Assembly (NCBI RefSeq): GCF_000313135.1
Contig: NW_004457702.1
Location: forward strand, 1,046,001 to 1,110,000
Source: Acanthamoeba castellanii str. Neff
Taxonomy: Eukaryota > Discosea > Longamoebia > Acanthamoebidae
DNA: 64,000 nt
Direction of reading: 5' to 3'
In this document: in pieces, positions 21,355 to 59,000 of the stretch
Layout: each line of letters starts with the position of its first letter
How positions within the stretch are numbered: the first letter of the stretch is position 1
Program-made: the position numbers and the translations under genes
Notes under the pieces: generated by a model
Seen by the model: only the letters and a program-made list of their open reading frames with translations
Told to the model about the DNA's origin: nothing
The model's database searches: none

Positions 21355-23300
21355 CTAGGACCGGGAGGTGAGGGCGTTCTTGCCCCAGGCTCGGGGGTCC
21401 TCGCGGCCCTTCTGGGAGAACTCGAGGTTCATCCGTCGGGTCTCCTCCTCCTCGAGCTCGCGCTGCTTCTTCTCTCGGATGAGCTTGTTGATCTCGGGGA
21501 GGTAGATCTGCTCCCACATGTCCATCGGCATGGCGAAGTAGTAGTCGTACTTCTTGGCCCACGAGGCGCCGATGGTCTGCGGGACCTCGCGGCTGTCGGT
21601 GCCGAAGTAGCGGCCGTCGCCGCGGCGGTCAAAGTTCCATTCGCCCTGGAACTTGGCCGAGTCGGGCCACACCATCGTGCCGTCGCCGTGGCGCACGCCG
21701 TTGCGCCAGTTGCCGGCGAACATGGCGCCGTCGGGCCAGTAGTACTCGCCGACGCCGTGCTTCTTGTTGGCCGAGAAGTTGCCCTTGTAGGTGCGGCCGT
21801 CGGGCCACTTGTAGACGCCGTAGCCCTCGTGCGCGCACTGCAGCCACTTGCCCTCGTAGGACGAGCCGTTGGGCCACGCGTAGAGGCCGTAGCCCGTGCG
21901 GGTGCCGTGCACCCAGTCGCCCTCGTAGCGGTCGCCGTCGGCCCACGTCCGCACGCCCTTGCCGTGCTCGATGCCCTTCTGCCACTGCCCGATGTACTTG
22001 GCCTTCTCCGACCACGTGTAGGTCCCGTGGCCGTGGCGGAAGCCCTCCTTGAACTCGCCCTCGTAGAAGGTCTTGTTGGGCCAGTGGTAGAACCCGAAGC
22101 CCTCGCGGTCGCCCTCCTTCCACTCGCCCTCGTAGTAGTGGTCCTCCTCGAACAGCCGCTTGCCGCGGCCGTGCTCCTTGCCCTCCTTCCACTCGCCCTC
22201 GTAGTAGGGCAGCACCGGCTGCTTGCGCTTGGCCTGCGCCGCCGCCCGCTTGGGCATCGACTGCTGGTGCTGGTCGGCCATCGACTGCTGGTTGGTCTCC
22301 GGCGCCGCGGCGTCGGCCGCCGCCGTGCCCTCGACCAGCGCGTTGCCGTCGTCGCCGTTCTCCTCCTTGGCCTCCTCGGACTTGATGTTCTGCAGAAGGA
22401 CACCAAGACGATCACGTGATGGTGAATTTTCTGACCACCTTTCCGCGGTACTCGGGCAGTGGTCAGGTCATGAAGATGAAGAAGTGTTGTGTACCTTCCA
22501 GATCTTCCTGCCGTGGCCGTGGTGTTTGCCGTCCTTCCACTCGCCCTCGTAGATGTACTCGGCGCTCTCGTGGCGCCCGACAACGGCCATGGCGCCGATG
22601 CGCGCCAGGTCGCTGATGGCCAGGTTGCGGCTCTGGTAGAGCCACTTCCAGCTCTTCTGGGCGGGCTTGGTCAGCTCCTCAGTAAACTCGGACTTCTGCT
22701 GGGTGCGCCTCAACAAGTCGAGCCAGAGCTGTAGTAGAACGTCACATAAAGGATGTTAAACTTTTGACAACCTCATAAATGGAGATGTTCAATAAAGATG
22801 GACGGAAATGGACCAGGAGGAGGAGAAGAAATAGTGGTGATGCATACCTGATCGTCGAGGGCGAGGCGACGCCAGTTGCGACAGACCTTCTGAACGCCGT
22901 TGGCGATGTCGCTTCCGTGGAGGAAGGTGAAGATGAGGTAGACGAGCTCCTCCGGCATGTCGTCGAAGCAGGCGCGGTCAGTGAAGGCGCCAGTGGTGAA
23001 ATAGGCCAGGTCGGCCATCTCCATCATGTCCTCCGCCTCGAGAGTGTCGTCGTCGAGCTGGTTGATCGAGCTCGGTCGGGTGAACAGCGCGGTCGCCTTC
23101 TTGTTCGAGTAGAAATCGCAGGTCATGAAAGATGGAGCACTCTCACTCCCGGCCACCATCAACGAAGAAGAATCCCTCTTCTTGTTGTTGGCGATGGTTG
23201 TCGTGGACCCCGTTGCGTTGGCGCCGCTTCCGTAGTCGACATCCATTATGTTGGCGTTGTAGGTCGCCGGTTCGAATACCGTGGCAGCCATTCCGAGCAT
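21355..23300 (-). CDS. F-box protein with MORN repeats
   Basis: Three exons (23300-22848, 22728-22495, 22389-21355) give 573 residues with exact phase. The start ATG at 23300 is followed nine bases later by another in-frame ATG. Residues about 120-165 form an F-box (DMPEELVYLIFTFLHGSDI, then VCRNWRRLALDDQLW). About ten MORN repeats of 23 residues follow, starting with YEGEWKDGKHHGHG and ending near GRYFG. F-boxes join substrates to SCF ubiquitin ligases, and MORN repeats bind lipids or proteins at membranes. A linker and a helical C-terminal tail surround the repeats. The pairing suggests an SCF adaptor that recognises a membrane-linked target, which is inference. Confidence 0.92.
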
Positions 23301-38753: not shown

Positions 38754-41177
38754 CCTGGACATTGGGGCGAACACTTCTACGACCCCGACACAAAGAAATG
38801 GTGCGTGTTGGCTTTCACGCACGGATAGGGGCTGCTTTCAACTAACACTGGGTGGGGGAGGGGGTGCAGGCTGGGCACCAGCGTATCGGCGACGACGGGC
38901 AAGAAGTTGCGGAGGGGCTTTTGCCAGTTCGTTCTGGGACCCATCTACAAGCTCATCCGTGGCTGCGTGGGCGGACCCGATAAGCGCGAAGCACTTCACA
39001 GGCATCTCGAACAGCTGGGAATCGACATCACAGATGCCTCGGAAGAAGGCGAGGGCTTGATCAAGAGGGTCATGGCCAATTTTCTTCCTCTGCCCGATGC
39101 ACGTCCGCTTTCCCCTCATTGTTCCTGCTCGTGCTTGCTTGATTGCTCATCGTCTTTTCTGGAGATTAGGCGCTGATGGACGCTATTGCGACGCATCTGC
39201 CATCGTCGGTGGTGGCGCAAAAGTATCGCATGGAAGCCCTGTACGCGGGTCCGATAGACGATGAATGCGCCTTGGCCATCTCGCTCTGCGACAAGGACGG
39301 TATGACGCCACATTCTGGGAAACTGTATGTAGAGCCGAGCACACTCACCCAAGCTTACATTCGGCGCGCCCTCATTAGGTCCTCTGATGTTGTACGTAGC
39401 GAATCTGGCCCCCTCCACCCACGAAGAGAACAGGTTCTACGCGTTCGGCCGCGTGTTCTCGGGCACTCTGGTCGCGGGGCAGCAAGTGCGCATCTTGGGT
39501 CCAGACGACCGACCCGGTCAAAAGGTCTCTCCCCTTCCCTTGGGCTCTTCTCTGCGCGTTCCACCAGGTGGCTTACTGGTTACGTCTATTCTTTGGGTGG
39601 CTGTGACATTCTAGGGTGTTATCAAGGTGAAGGACATTGAAAGGCTACTGGTCGCCGGGCATGGCCGCCTAGAAGAGACGGATGCAGTGTCGGCGGGCAA
39701 CCTGGTCTACCTGGCCGGTCATTTCCTGGTAGACTCCAGCACCATCACCTCGAGCCCGACCGCGCACCCGTTCAAGCCCATCCGGAAGCCTTTACCCGTC
39801 GTTCATCAGAGTATTCAGCCAAACGTACTACTCCTCTACCCCCCCCCCCAAGCATGAGCACAACACCGCACCTTCAATGCTTGATGATGACCGAATGGCA
39901 ATGGCGTTGACACTCGGTCCCTGTTCACAGAACCCAGCCGACTTACCCAAGGTGATCGAGGCCCTACGCAAGATGTCACGCACACACCTGGACGGAGGGG
40001 CTGCGATGGACGAGCGAACGGGCGAGCTGGTGGTCTCTGGCATGAGCGAGCGGCACCTGGAGATGCTCTTGGGCCCGCTGGCCAGGGACCTCGCCGCGGT
40101 GGGCGTCGGGTTCGCTCGGTCGTCGGTGCCCGCAATATCCTTACGGGAGACCGTGGTGGCGCGCTCGAGCCAGACGTGCATGGCCAAGTCGCCCAACAAG
40201 CACACCCGGCTGTGGATGACCGCAGAGCCCCTCCCCGCGGGTCTGGCCGACGCCATCGAGAGCGGCTCTTTCAATACCAGCGCCGACCGGGCCGCTCTCA
40301 GCAGCCAGCTTCACACTTGGGAGGTCCTGGTGCGTCTCCTACTCTGCTTCTTTCTTTAACGAAACAAGTACAAGAACGAAAATGACGCTATGATCGCAAC
40401 AATACAACATTAACAATAATCATTATTATCAAACGGACAGGATGCGAGGCGGATCTGGTGCTGGGGACCGGACGGGAGGGGACCCAACGCCATGTCCGAG
40501 GAGTTCAAGTATCCGCTGCAGTACGTCGGCGAGATCAGGGGCTTAGTCGAGCAGACGTTCCAGTGGGGCACGCGCGAGGGTGCGCTGTGCGAGGAGCCTC
40601 TGCGCGGCGTGCGGTTCAAACTGGTCGACTTCGTACTCACGACCGACGCCATCCACCGGGGCGCCGGCCAGCTCATTCCGGCGGGGCGTCGCGTGCTGCG
40701 CGCGGCGCAACTCGACTCACGGCCGCGGCTCATGGAGCCCGTCTACCTCGTCGAGACCCACGCGCGCCAGTCGGACATTGACGTCGTCACGACCATCATC
40801 GCCGAGCGGCGCGGCCAGGTCATGCTGTCGTCTGCCTGCGACGGCGGCGGCATGTGCCGGGTCAAAGCGTACCTCCCGGTCGTCGAGTCCTTTGGCTTCG
40901 CGTCCGCTCTTCGCCAGGCCACCGGTACCCTGCTCACCAGCAGTCGCCAGACCCACAATTGCTCGTGGTCGGCGCCCACTACTTGGCTGAACTCAACTCG
41001 GTGTGTGTGTACACAGGGCGGCCGGCTGGCGAGTGCGTGTTCGATCACTGGCAGATGGTGGAGGGCGACCCGCTCCAGGCGCACAGCACCGCTGCCGAGT
41101 TGATGCTGGCCGTGCGCCGACGCAAGGGCCTCAAGGAGGAGATCCCGTCCCTCGACACCTACCTGGACCGGCTGTGA
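38754..41177 (+). CDS. EF-2-like protein A, lacking the GTP-binding domain (truncated or pseudogene)
   Basis: Eight pieces (to 38800, 38870-39095, about 39172-39299, 39379-39524, 39615-39834, 39931-40329, 40441-40924, 41017-41177) match eukaryotic EF-2 from the end of the G' region to the C-terminus. Landmarks are [51 protein letters not shown] and AIHRGAGQ. The GTPase domain is absent: upstream is a complete TPR gene 96 bases away, and the first piece has an in-frame stop just before it and no ATG. One intron starts with GC instead of GT (39096-39171) at the same place where paralog B has GTAAGT. The diphthamide histidine is kept (codon 40654-40656). It is either a decayed copy or a domain IV/V-only protein. 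Confidence 0.8.
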
Positions 41178-41318: not shown

Positions 41319-42805
41319 ATGGAGGCTCTGTCTGATGAGCTGTTGCTCCTCGTCTTCCAGTTACGTGACAGCTTCCCCTCTACCTTCTCCCAAGTCTCTC
41401 GGGGTGCCTTCCTCATCTTCCGTGTGGTGGTGGTGTGAAACAGAGAGGTGGGTTGGGAGGGGACCGTGCGGGGCGCTACGGCCGTGTGTCGCCGGTGGCA
41501 CGCGATAAGCTGCGACGACAGCCTCTGGCGCTTCTTCTTCCACTCCCGCTACCGTGCCCCCCCCCTCTTCACTCTTTCTTTTGATTCATTTTCTTTTATG
41601 CCATTTTGTTTATGACCGAAAACACAGCCTCGCCGAAGGAGAGAGCTACGGACAGCGGCGACTGGAAGGGCGCCTTCATCCGAGAGGCTACGGTGCGCCG
41701 GTGGTGGCAGTCTCTCTCGTTCACGCCGCCTCCGCTTCCGTACAAAGGGCTCAGCAGCATTCCGACGGCACCACGCGAGCAAACCGGTTCCGAGATTCGT
41801 TTGGTGTGTGAGCTTGTGGGTGGCTGTGACAACCAGCTGATGACTAATTGCATTGTGCGCAGGTGGTGCTTGGCTGCCCCGGTACCGGGAAAACCTGCCT
41901 GACTGTACAATATTGCGTGGTACGGCTGGACTCTCGCTTTGTTGTGCTCTGACCTGCTCATAATGTAATGGCGGCACGGCCCAGAATCATTTCATTGAGC
42001 GCTGGGACCCGAACATTGGTACCGCACTGGCTCAGCCACACACGGTTGAATGCCCCGACGTTGCGCCGACAATGTGGGCTCGGAGCTGAGCTGTGCGCAT
42101 GTGGACGATGTGCAGGGGACTCCTACCGGAAGCGCGTGATGCTGGATGGCACCGCGAGAGTGCTCGATATCCTGGACACCGCAGGCAACGAAGAATTCTC
42201 CGTACCGCGCCGTCTGCCCCCAACCTCCTCCATTGTGGCGGACTCAAATGACCTTAAGCCGAGGCGCGCGCACGCGCACACACCGCACACAGGCGCTCAG
42301 GCCTCAGTGGATACAGTCCAGTGCGGCGTTCTTGGTGGTCTACAGCGCTACTTCCTTCGCCTCGTTCCGCCGCTGCGAGGAGTTTATCAAAGAAGTGTGG
42401 CTCCGTGCCTCCCCTCTCCTCACTGGCCGACCGAGCGGCGATGAGACTAACCAACAGCCGCGGCTGCTCCCACAAAACCACTGCACTGCTGCTACCAAAC
42501 CTCTTCAGGTCCTGCAGGTGAAGGAGGAGCCCGCGGTGGTGCCGGTGGTCATGGTGGAGAACAAGATCGATCTACGCGACGAGCGCGAGGTGCCCCCGGA
42601 TGCGGGACCGGCGGCGGCTCAGGCCATGGGCTGCTTCTTTGCCCGGGTGAGCTGCAAGACGCGCGAGGGCGTCGACGAGGCCATGCTGGGAGCAGCGCGC
42701 CTGGCGCTGGCCATTACGACCGGCAAGATCTTGGACGCCGCCAGTACGACGACCACGACCAGGACGAAGAAGAATAAGAAGTCCGACCCCTGCCTCCTCG
42801 CGTAA
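41319..42805 (+). CDS. F-box / Ras-family GTPase fusion with C-terminal CaaX
   Basis: Eight exons (41319-41359, 41444-41553, 41628-41803, 41863-41916, 41985-42018, 42116-42201, 42293-42394, 42509-42805) sum to 299 codons with exact phase. Residues 1-60 form an F-box (ALSDELLLLVFQ, then VCRRWHAISCDDSLWRFFF). After a linker, a whole Ras fold follows: P-loop GCPGTGKT, DSYRKRVMLDG, DILDTAGNEEFSALR, VENKIDL and VSCKTREG. The tail is Lys-rich and ends CLLA, a CaaX-type prenylation site. Compared with Ras, Thr-35 is Asn and Gln-61 is Asn, and the SAK motif is SCK. The parts suggest an SCF adaptor whose substrate end is a membrane-anchored GTPase. That is inference. Confidence 0.9.
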
Positions 42806-43071: not shown

Positions 43072-43879
43072 ATGAACGAGCTGCCGACGGAGATGGTGCT
43101 GGCGGTGCTCGAGTGGCTGGACGCACGCGGCCTGTTTTCGGCCCAGCACGTGTGCCGCTTGTGGCGCAGCCTCTGCGCCAAGAATAGGTGGAAGGCCCTG
43201 TGGCGGGACGCGTACCACCGCACCTGGCCGCCTCCGCTCTTGGCCCTCCAGGATGTGCCCAACGAGCCCATATTCTGGTGGGCTCTGTGCAGGGACCGCC
43301 TCACCCGAGCGCTACAGTATCCCCCTCCTCCTGTCTTGTTTCGTTCATTGGGCGCTGCACCAGCTGGTGGCGGGGAGGGGGGGGGCTGACGAGGCTGTGT
43401 GTCATGTGTCGTGAGAAGGTGACCCCAAGGTGCAGATGGTCAAGTTGGCCGGCGTCGTGGGTGAGATTGCCGAATCTGTTCAGCAAAAAGACGATGAGCC
43501 GAAGACGTGGCAGCGCGGAGAGAAACGTACGAGGGTCGAGATGGAGCCTGCGGGTGAGCCTCGTCATTCACCGAAGAAGCAGAAGAGGGCAGGCGGCCTC
43601 AACAATTCAGACCACTGGTCATCATCCTTGGCAGATGATTCGTCGTCAGACGAATCATCATCCTCGGCAGATGATGAGTCTTCCTCCTTCTCCGAGGAGT
43701 CTGAGGAGGAAGAGAACGAAGATGAAGCGCCGCAGGGTGGTATGGTTGTCTGGACGAAGCCGCAGCAGGTCGCGAAGGCGAAGCGTCTTGCCCGCCAGGT
43801 GCAGGAGATCGCAACTTCGCTCCACCAGATAAGTTTCATGCGCCACAGCCTGGCCCAGTTGCTCTCGTCCATCACGTAA
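43072..43879 (+). CDS. F-box protein with an acidic serine-rich tail
   Basis: The ATG at 43072 starts directly with an F-box (NELPTEMVLAVLEWLDARG, then HVCRLWRSLCAKNRWKALW). One intron follows, with a donor near 43330 and an acceptor near 43435. The second exon has a basic patch, a bipartite nuclear-signal-like KKQKR stretch, and a long run of Ser, Asp and Glu. The C-terminus is helical. It lies 267 bases after the F-box/Ras gene on the same strand, so the two could be relics of a local duplication, but outside the F-box they share nothing I can see. The exact intron ends are uncertain. Confidence 0.75.
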
Positions 43880-55891: not shown

Positions 55892-56000
55892 GACGGTCGT
55901 GTGGGGTGGCGAGTACAACCTGGTCGGCCTTTCTTGCTTCTAACGGCGAAAATAGGAGTTACATGTCTTGAAGCTGTTGTCGCTGTGTGGGTGCTGGGAT

Positions 56001-59000
56001 TCAGAGCTTGTCCACAAGGTCGTCGAGGGAGGGGATCTCCTCCTTGAGGCCCTTGCGTCGTCGCACGCCGAGCACCAGCTGTCCCGCGCGGCTGCTTGGG
56101 TCGCGTGGATCTCCCTCCACCAGCTGCCAGTGGTCGAACACGAATTGCACGTTGGCGCCTCCTTCACTCCACACACACCACACAGGCACACCGCACACGC
56201 ACGCATCAGCGCAAACATGTTGCAGGGGGGGACTGCAACGGTAATGGACTGGGTTGCATACGCACCAGTGGCCTCGCGGAGAGCAGCCCAGAAGCCCAAT
56301 GACTCGGCCACCGGCAGGTACGCCACTATCGCGTGCTTTGGCTCATTGTGGTCGGTGGTCAGGCCGCCAGTGCTGTCGTTGACGTTGGTGCGGCGGTCCG
56401 GATGAGGCGAGAGAACTTGGCCGCGCCGTTGGGCGATGAGGGCGCACGCGGCGTCGATGTTGGCCTCGTTCGCGCGAGCCTCGATCAGATAGACGGGCTC
56501 CATGAGCCGCGGCTGCGCGGCCATTAGCGCGGCCCACACCCCGCGACGAGCCGTTGGTATTATCTGACCGGCGCCTCTTCGCCTGGCATCGGGGTGCAGG
56601 GTGGTGTCCACCAGGTTGAAGCGCACGCCGCGTACGGGCTCGCCGCACAAGACGCCCTCCTGCGTTGCGAAGTTGAACCCTGACACGACGGCGCTCTTCA
56701 CCTCGTGACGGTACGGGTAGCAGTACCGGCCGGTGTCCAGCACCATGTCGAACAGCGCATTGGGACCCCTTTCGTTCGGTCCCCAGCCCCACATCTGCCT
56801 TGAGTCCTGATTATTGGATTGCGTTACTACTGTAGTTTCCGTGTGCGTGTGCGTGTGCGTGTGTGTGCGGGCGCGCGCATGTGCAAGTGTAAAAACTACT
56901 ACCAAAGCGAAAGGAGCAGCGCACCACGACGTTCCAGGTGTAGAGCTGGCGGCTGAGAATGTGCGGATCTGCAGACGGATCGACGTCATGGGTGTCGATG
57001 GCGTCGGCCAGACCCGGCGGGAGGGGCTCCGCGGTCATGTACAGTCGGTTGTTTTTGTTGGGCGACTTGGTGAGGCACACCTGGCTCGACGGGGCGGTCA
57101 CGGTCTCTCGCAGGGAGACCGCCGGTGCCGAGTGCGAAGTGAACTCGACCCCCAGCGAGGCAAGATATGTGGTCGCCCGGCCCACGAGGAGCTCTAGGGG
57201 CTGCGTGCCCGCGCCGCAGATCACCAGCCCCTCGTCAGCGTATTCGTCCAGCCAACACTGGCCACCGAGGCATGTTCCCGAGAGCCGGCGCAAGGCAGCG
57301 GTGATATCTCTAGGCAACGAGGTTGTGTTCTGTGGTGTGGGCGTGGGCGTGTGCGTGTGCGTGTGCGTGTGCGTGTGCGTGTGCGTGTGCGTGTGCGTGT
57401 GCGTGAGTGTGTGCGTGGTTAGTATGTGCCCGGCCCTCCTCAAGATTGTCGTGTGTGTACCTTTAACTGAAGCGCTGTCCCTATGACGAAAGAAGGTCTC
57501 AGTATAGGCCTGAAGCTGTGCTTGAGCGTGATATCGCTCGAGGTGATGGTGCCGGAGTCGAAGAAGCAGTCGTCTGGAAGGATCACAATGTCGCCTGCCG
57601 TGGCAGCATCCACGGGCTCGAAGCGACCGTGCACGACAGCGTATAGGCCCGCCACCGACCCCAGCTTGCTCTCGGGCTGAGCGGCATAGTTAGCTCCTTG
57701 CGCCCAAACAATATAGTGCTTCCAAGAGCCTAAGCAGGACGCACCCTGTCCCAGTAGAATCGGTTGTGTGATGAAGCCAAGACGCGCACCTGCCGCCCCG
57801 GCACGACGGTGCCTGCGAACACGCGACCCAAAGCGTAGAAGGTTCGCTCCTTGGCGTCGTGCCCCGGAGATAGCACAAGCTTGGCAATGTGCAGCATCAG
57901 CGGTCCTGCGTGGACGACGTGTGTCGAGTGTGATGTGTGATGTGTGTTATTAGTCAGCATTATTCGTGCGCCTACTCGCACGTACCGTCTTCGTCACAGC
58001 GCGCGATGGCCATGGAGCATTCGTCGTCCGCTGAGCCCGCGTACAGTACCTCCGCGCGGTACACTTGGGCCTCCATAGGCGATGGCAAATGCTCAGCGAT
58101 CGTCTTCACCAACGCCTGACCAATGTCACGCCAAAGATGAGTAAAAGTACTCAGGAAGGCCGAGGCAACCTTATGGTAGGAGCAGACTTACACCGGGTAG
58201 CGGAAGAAGCGTGGCCATTGTGCTCTTCATCACTTCCGTGGCATCAGAGATGTGGTCGTAGCCGTCGAGTTTGATGTCCAGCTGGCGGAGGTGTGTCTTG
58301 CGGAATCGACGCTTATCGGACCCGCCCAGGCATCCGCGGATGATCTTGTAGATGGGTTCCAGCACGAACCGACAAAAGCCGCGGCGCAGCTTCTTACCCG
58401 TCGTGTGGCATACACTGGTCGTAAGCCTGTTGATGTGCTCACTGGTCGTGAGTGTTTTGAAACAACACAACCAACACACTTGGCGCCAAGTGAATCGCAG
58501 ATCGCACCATGTCTTCGTGTCGGGGTCATAGAAGTGGTCACCCCACAGACGCTTTGTGATTTGCGCCGCCTCGCCTTCACCGCCAAGTGCCTTCCGGAGC
58601 CTCTCGGCGAATGTGTGCAGTGTGAAGCCCCTGATAACAAAAACGTGAGCATCGGACGGTGATGACGCGGCTCGGGGAGAGAGTGCTTGGGCGCACCAGC
58701 CATGGAGACCCGAGGCGAACACGACCGAGCCTTCGTCTGGTCGCGCCAGCGAGTCGCTCATGCCTTCGGATCGCAGGGTGGAGACCAGGCCGTTGAACGC
58801 CGCAACGATCGCACACAAACGTTCGTACAGAGCCTCGGGCTTCTGCAAGTGGATGTCTTACTTAGTTTCTTACTTGCTGGTGTTGTGTGCTGTGTGTATT
58901 CACCAGTTTGTGCTCCAGTATGGCTTGGTCGAGCTTGCTTATTACGAGCACCGGCTTCACTCTCTCCGACAGCGCATACCGCAGCGCCGTCTCGGTGAGG

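Follow-up and report, generated by a model that had tools for sequence, protein, structure and literature searches.

An F-box joined to a Ras-type GTPase with a CaaX end in Acanthamoeba castellanii, and candidate F-box–GTPase fusions elsewhere in the same genome

A gene at positions 41319-42805 of a 64,000-nucleotide stretch of the Acanthamoeba castellanii str. Neff genome (hereafter the window; G+C content, 58%) raises the question of whether an F-box and a Ras-type GTPase can belong to a single protein and, if so, what such a protein might do. An initial annotation of the window had read this gene as an N-terminal F-box fused to a complete Ras fold and a prenylation-type terminus, with altered residues in both switch regions.

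Results

The gene model joins an F-box, a Ras-type G domain, and a CaaX motif

The gene lies on the forward strand and comprises eight exons separated by seven GT-AG introns of 84, 74, 59, 65, 97, 91, and 114 nt, in that order (Table 1). All phases agree, and the exon coordinates, phases, and splice sites of the initial annotation match the sequence throughout. The coding sequence of 903 nt specifies 300 amino acids and a stop codon, and the resulting polypeptide consists of the F-box, a linker of ~60 residues, the Ras-type G domain, a basic tail, and the CaaX motif. It ends in KKNKKSDPCLLA, with CLLA directly before the stop codon, as the initial annotation had it. Since intron 7 is in frame and stop-free, its retention could add a 38-residue insert; it is spliced out in the public protein P0001, and the open-reading-frame protein P0002 reads across it. 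Alternative intron-1 donors at 41365 and 41394 were rejected, as P0001 instead carries the 41359/41444 junction.

Table 1 Features of the F-box–Ras gene (positions in the window unless residues are stated).
Feature	Position	Strand	Content
Exon 1	41319..41359	+	Start codon and first F-box part, MEALSDELLLLVFQ; identical to P0001
Exon 2	41444..41553	+	Remaining F-box, EVGWEGTVRGATAVCRRWHAISCDDSLWRFFFHSRY; PF12937 at residues 6-46
Exon 3	41628..41803	+	F-box tail, DWKGAFIREATVRRWW, and start of strand β1 (SEIRL)
Strand in predicted structure, begun in exon 3	residues 106-113		Structure model
Exon 4	41863..41919	+	P-loop GCPGTGKT (41872-41895), helix 1
Exon 5	41985..42018	+	Switch I NHFIERWDPNI, with Asn at Ras position 35
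Exon 6	42116..42201	+	Strands 2-3, switch II DTAGNEE, with Asn at Ras position 61
Exon 7	42293..42394	+	ALRPQWIQSSAAFLVVYS... as far as helix 3
Intron 7	42395..42508	+	In frame, stop-free; possible retained-intron isoform
Exon 8	42509..42805	+	NKID (G4), SCK (G5), basic tail, CLLA (42791-42802), stop

The claimed N-terminal F-box is confirmed by the Pfam F-box-like model PF12937, which scores above its curated cut-off (30.1 versus 24.3 bits, E 4.2e-7), while the F-box model PF00646 remains below its own (11.5 versus 20.5 bits). In the AlphaFold2 model, which was built on 54 sequences, the N-terminus is poorly determined (block values of 35-67 for residues 1-100) and contains helices at residues 6-15, 22-35, and 41-47.

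Several other reading frames share the window. Two divergent EF-2-like frames lie at 40492-41177 on the forward strand and 55940-56989 on the reverse strand; the first stops ~140 bases 5′ of the F-box–Ras start codon, and EFG_IV and EFG_C exceed their Pfam cut-offs in both pieces scanned. Further F-box exons are found at 43075-43206 on the forward strand (PF12937, 38.9 bits), within a gene that begins directly 3′ of the F-box–Ras gene, and at 22848-22967 on the reverse strand (37.8 bits). A 308-codon open frame at 21355-22281 on the reverse strand contains repeated YxGxWxxGxxxGxG-like units that appear MORN-like by eye.

The two halves appear to be parts of one spliced protein

A search of about 5.8 billion proteins identified the public protein P0001, which matches the gene model residue for residue over all 300 positions and supports the fusion proposed in the initial annotation. 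The P0001 cluster contains three member sequences and two contigs, the longest of 1457 bases, and its source code, 'lgn', presumably denotes assemblies of sequencing runs. Because these contigs reach at most 1457 bases compared with 1487 for the gene and its seven introns, we take them to derive from spliced RNA. cDNAs stopping before the P-loop exon at 41863 had been named as the outcome that would undo the fusion, and P0001 speaks against it.

That two adjoining genes, one for an F-box protein and one for a Ras protein, have been misread as one, or are joined only by rare read-through splicing, is highly improbable. F-box genes are common in this genome and one sits directly downstream (43075-43206), but a two-gene or mis-spliced model is contradicted by the 300-residue identity of P0001. 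Strand β1 (SEIRL|VVLG) is divided between the F-box-tail exon and the P-loop exon, which also argues against two genes, as does the lack of a start codon for the Ras half. Methionine occurs in the model only at residues 1, 148, 217, 242, and 261, so that none of its ATG codons could start a product restricted to the Ras half and still containing the P-loop, and the exon-4 frame contains three stops within the 60 bases 5′ of the exon.

A search with a 104-residue query returned two hits among 25 candidates, P0001 and the metagenome protein P0121. The latter (60% identity over 45% of the query) carries LSDELLLLIF, an apparent in-frame read-through of intron 1, and then EVGWEGTARTVSAVCRRWHAVS. 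Two protein searches found no whole-length relative outside the P0001 cluster, and the window copy may therefore be young. A scan of viral contigs gave three pattern matches and no relative.

The G domain is of Ras type with altered switch residues

The Ras family model PF00071 matches residues 108-266 with 134.8 bits (cut-off 21.6, E 2.7e-39), and the predicted structure gives this part a Ras-like fold, in keeping with the Ras fold claimed at the outset. Confidence in this part of the AlphaFold2 model is high, with block pLDDT values of 80-98 across residues 101-270 except for 67 at residues 161-170. The closest structure in the PDB is K-Ras (TM-score 0.89 by target length), and the best 50 of 1994 structural matches are Ras proteins. 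Likewise, the best 60 of 812 solved relatives found by sequence are all Ras proteins (best E 1.8e-37). By these comparisons, the G domain is closest to Ras and not to Rho, Rab, or Arf.

To number its residues, P0001 was aligned to the HRas sequence and compared with 133 other Ras hits. The P-loop GCPGTGKT with G15-K16-T17, the DTAG motif, N116-K117-D119 (NKID), and S145-x-K147 (SCK) are all intact. Pro, Trp, Asn, Gly, and Asn occupy Ras positions 12, 32, 35, 37, and 61, respectively, and the Asn at position 35 changes the G2 motif. Both asparagines noted in the initial annotation are thus present, and neither occurs in the compared domains, of which 130 have Thr35 and 127 have Gln61; Pro at position 12 appears in one and Gly at position 37 in three. 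The conserved motifs and the predicted fold make nucleotide binding likely, and the altered residues make normal switching doubtful. Without Thr35 and Gln61, the domain might just as well be locked or switch only weakly. A literature search found no published data on Ras G12P/Q61N.

We propose, with moderate confidence, that the F-box–Ras protein, made as one polypeptide, is anchored in a membrane and serves an SCF (Skp1-Cul1-F-box) ubiquitin ligase as its substrate receptor. Docking on Skp1 would fall to the F-box and recruitment to the G domain, whose target is probably a component of a Ras pathway or a protein of the membrane, and the prenylated CLLA end together with the Lys-rich tail would place the complex on a membrane; GTP/GDP binding and ligase activity are likewise parts of this proposal. 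The genome contains three matches to Skp1 genes and 21 exon matches to cullin genes. The 'nucleotide-dependent' character of the proposed action is the weakest part of the receptor idea for the window copy.

Further F-box–GTPase candidates occur in the genome

Besides the window gene, nine loci in the genome assembly (38.4 Mb, 250 contigs) are candidate F-box–GTPase fusions. They fall into a Ras kind, a Rho/Rac kind, and an ankyrin–F-box–Rab-like kind. Two Acanthamoeba 18S primers, JDP1 and JDP2, match nowhere in this assembly when up to 2 mismatches are allowed, and the rDNA may be absent from it. Scoring covered 150 of 436 Ras, 452 PF12937, 310 PF00646, and 260 Roc candidates, and 20 of the 99 regions drawn up were taken as listed. 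One set of 176 GTPase matches entered the survey as far as its matches were listed, so the genome should contain at least this many fusions.

A comparison of positions between 191 F-box exons and 153 GTPase loci (merged and including the window P-loop exon; both lists compiled by hand) placed an F-box exon upstream of the GTPase, in the same orientation and no more than 1.3 kb away, at nine of the 153 loci. The corresponding counts were one downstream on the same strand, one upstream on the opposite strand, and none downstream on the opposite strand, with ~0.5 expected by chance from the densities in each position class. The single downstream same-strand case is the next gene in the window. 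The window gene itself, whose F-box is split by an intron, stands outside the nine upstream cases.

The Ras-type candidate, L036, encodes its F-box and P-loop in a single 464-codon exon. A public, spliced protein, P0122, matches it with 98% identity (458 aa; cluster of 11 member sequences and one contig of 2175 bases), shows three L036 junctions that had been predicted beforehand and a fourth that had not, and contains F-box and Ras domains that both pass their Pfam cut-offs. All of the nine other than L036 are candidates read from genome sequence alone. Among them, L033 has Rac1 as its best solved relative (E 4.2e-55); its F-box lies in a single open frame with strand β1 and the first half of the P-loop, and in a hand-spliced model the F-box and Ras domains both score above the Pfam cut-off. 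L037 is Rho-like by eye. L093 is Rab-like by search (Rab-35, E 1.7e-24), and a single open frame of 626 codons contains its ankyrin, F-box, and Ras domains, each of which exceeds its Pfam cut-off. L034, L035, L094, L095, and L096 were judged Rab-like by eye; ankyrin repeats give a Pfam match in the L095 piece and were seen by eye in L096. A weak F-box piece upstream of the GTPase at L052 (14.2 bits) and a second, identical occurrence of the L036 F-box stretch near a contig end (C128:28580) were left out of the count.

The F-box–Ras protein might instead be a scaffold that is tethered to a membrane and has lost G-domain activity, its Ras fold kept as a non-switching binding surface beside the F-box. 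Asn at positions 35 and 61, Trp32, and Gly37 would suit such a role, and so would the sister gene L036, which carries G15D and has SHAD in place of NKxD and is probably impaired in nucleotide binding. However, the window copy preserves GCPGTGKT, NKID, and SCK, and L033, of Rac type, retains GKT, DTAGQ, TKAD, and the Thr of switch I; we consider the scaffold reading unlikely.

A public protein of 487 aa, P0135, combines a U-box (29.9 bits) with a Rab-like domain and ends in CLIM. By its domain content, it is a further case of a small GTPase fused to a module of ubiquitin ligases.

Most of the fusion candidates end in a CaaX-type motif

C-termini were read at the stop codon of the gene-end open frame, with anchor peptides picked by eye and L096 left out. 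Eight of the nine F-box–GTPase proteins and candidates read in this way have C-x-x-[Q/A] at the stop: CLLA in the window protein, CSMQ in L033, CLLQ in both L037 and L093, CLVQ in L094, CTLQ in L034, and CVLQ in both L035 and L095. P0122 (L036) ends in WRENNRT and has no CaaX. A spliced protein confirms the CaaX tail only for the window gene. A CaaX motif in which X is Gln or Ala points to farnesylation, and prenyltransferase subunits are encoded in the genome (seven exon matches in two places). Rab proteins usually end in CC or CxC; the CaaX motifs found in their place suggest that the Rab-like candidates have functional reading frames and a common design.

Comparison with known systems

The pairing of an F-box with a Ras-like GTPase is already published, in the form of the FYVE–F-box–Ras-like GTPase protein TbFRP from trypanosomes and other Euglenozoa (PMC3593210), whose authors describe the full three-part combination as unique to Euglenozoa (PMC3593210). 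As described there, TbFRP resembles the window protein in the order of these parts, with the F-box ahead of a Ras-like GTPase at the C-terminus, and in being directed to membranes (PMC3593210). It differs in its N-terminal FYVE domain, which binds PI3P and serves as its membrane part (PMC3593210), and in being cleaved, whereas the window protein ends in CaaX. Pfam finds no FYVE domain in the window protein at E values up to 10, so it does not have the architecture of a TbFRP orthologue.

TbFRP also raises the prospect that the F-box of the window protein acts on the Ras-family GTPase to which it is joined, either for self-limiting turnover or for a TbFRP-like cleavage that releases the GTPase. 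The F-box does stand in cis with the GTPase, and TbFRP is reported to be rapidly proteolysed with release of the intact GTPase, the F-box perhaps being coupled to this process (PMC3593210). The altered residues 35 and 61 could, in addition, make removal of the protein the end of its signal. On the other side, F-boxes paired with Ras, Rac, Rab, and ankyrin fit receptors at least equally well, and the window copy is anchored at its GTPase end, so that after cleavage the GTPase would still be membrane-bound. We judge self-directed turnover or cleavage to be a serious though less probable alternative. The receptor reading itself calls for caution given the cleavage of TbFRP, the absence of a significant effect of its silencing on proliferation (PMC3593210), and the unclear role of its F-box, which may be tied to turnover, with the authors favoring rapid protein turnover (PMC3593210).

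Other systems share single features with the proposed receptor. RhoBTB proteins combine a Rho-class GTPase with BTB domains and work with Cul3, and the F-box protein FBXL2 binds its targets through an LRR part. Rab40 unites a small GTPase and a cullin-ligase docking element in one polypeptide and, in the accounts cited, acts on Rap2 (PMC4812663, PMC6088270); RhoBTB–Cul3 is a second analogue (PMC4812663, PMC6088270). Rab40 differs in its SOCS box, its use of Elongin BC and Cul5, and its Rab class, and RhoBTB in its BTB domains, Cul3, and Rho class, whereas the window protein has an N-terminal F-box and is of Ras class. Neither a SOCS box nor a BTB domain is found in the window protein by Pfam at E values up to 10, and it therefore belongs to neither the Rab40 nor the RhoBTB family. 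By analogy with Rab40 (Cul5) and RhoBTB (Cul3), it is plausible that a GTPase could hold the target for an SCF ligase.

Similar to the window protein, FBXL2 is an F-box protein with a C-terminal CaaX motif, which is reported to be needed for its geranylgeranylation, membrane location, and substrate interaction (PMC5627969), as well as for its interaction with IP3R3 and neddylated CUL1 (PMC5627969); it has no GTPase. The membrane-anchored Legionella effector AnkB contains ankyrin repeats, an F-box, and, in some strains, a CaaX motif (PMC7542358). This domain set resembles that of the ankyrin–F-box–Rab–CaaX candidates of the genome minus the Rab-like domain, although AnkB is bacterial and the account cited names no GTPase domain for it (PMC7542358).

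The fusions may have arisen more than once

A further F-box–Ras protein, P0130, is present in EukProt, with an F-box at residues 166-213 and a Ras domain at residues 362-525, both above the Pfam cut-off. It differs from the window protein in its long linker and tail, in keeping Thr35 and Gln61, and in lacking a CaaX end. Against this genome, P0130 gives 65 matches, all within its Ras part (residues 336-536) and the best at 46%, and as far as this search shows it is not a gene of this genome.

In a tree of 30 rows, in which the window protein, L036, and P0130 were labelled as F-box–Ras, the labels require three changes, at least two of them forced by well-supported branches. A single origin of the three proteins appears in 0% of 200 bootstrap trees, the labels cluster no more than shuffled ones do (500 of 500 shuffles were as low), and a clade of the window protein and L036 is weakly rejected (p-AU 0.033). 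Because the window row is a long branch, the tree is only indicative on the origins of the F-box–Ras proteins. The division of small GTPases into Ras, Rac, and Rab classes predates this genome, and the simplest reading is consequently one of at least three separate F-box–GTPase joinings; exchange of the G domain behind a single F-box is also conceivable.

Discussion

Relative to TbFRP, the window protein is new in having no FYVE domain, in its CaaX end, and in its occurrence in another lineage; new as well is that a single genome appears to have fused F-boxes to GTPases of three classes, most of them with CaaX ends. Among the papers covered, our literature search recognized no F-box–GTPase fusion beyond TbFRP, and the main text of the A. 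castellanii genome paper contains no mention of F-boxes (PMC4053784).

A broader and more tentative reading, which we regard as doubtful on balance, is that these genes represent a class of prenylated SCF receptors, repeatedly arisen, in which Ras, Rac, and Rab domains replace LRR, WD40, or kelch parts, and membrane identity together with nucleotide state would pick the target. The ankyrin–F-box–Rab–CaaX candidates would then possibly be the host type that AnkB imitates.

Known fusions of GTPases to cullin adaptors employ Cul5 (Rab40) or Cul3 (RhoBTB), with one F-box–GTPase, TbFRP, in Euglenozoa. If several proteins of one genome combine F-box, GTPase, and CaaX, some with intact and others with altered switches, they would allow a test of whether nucleotide state and membrane anchoring can gate SCF action, and such a set in an unrelated genome would also test repeated arrival at this design. 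The F-box–GTPase set suggests a membrane-bound way to select proteins for destruction.
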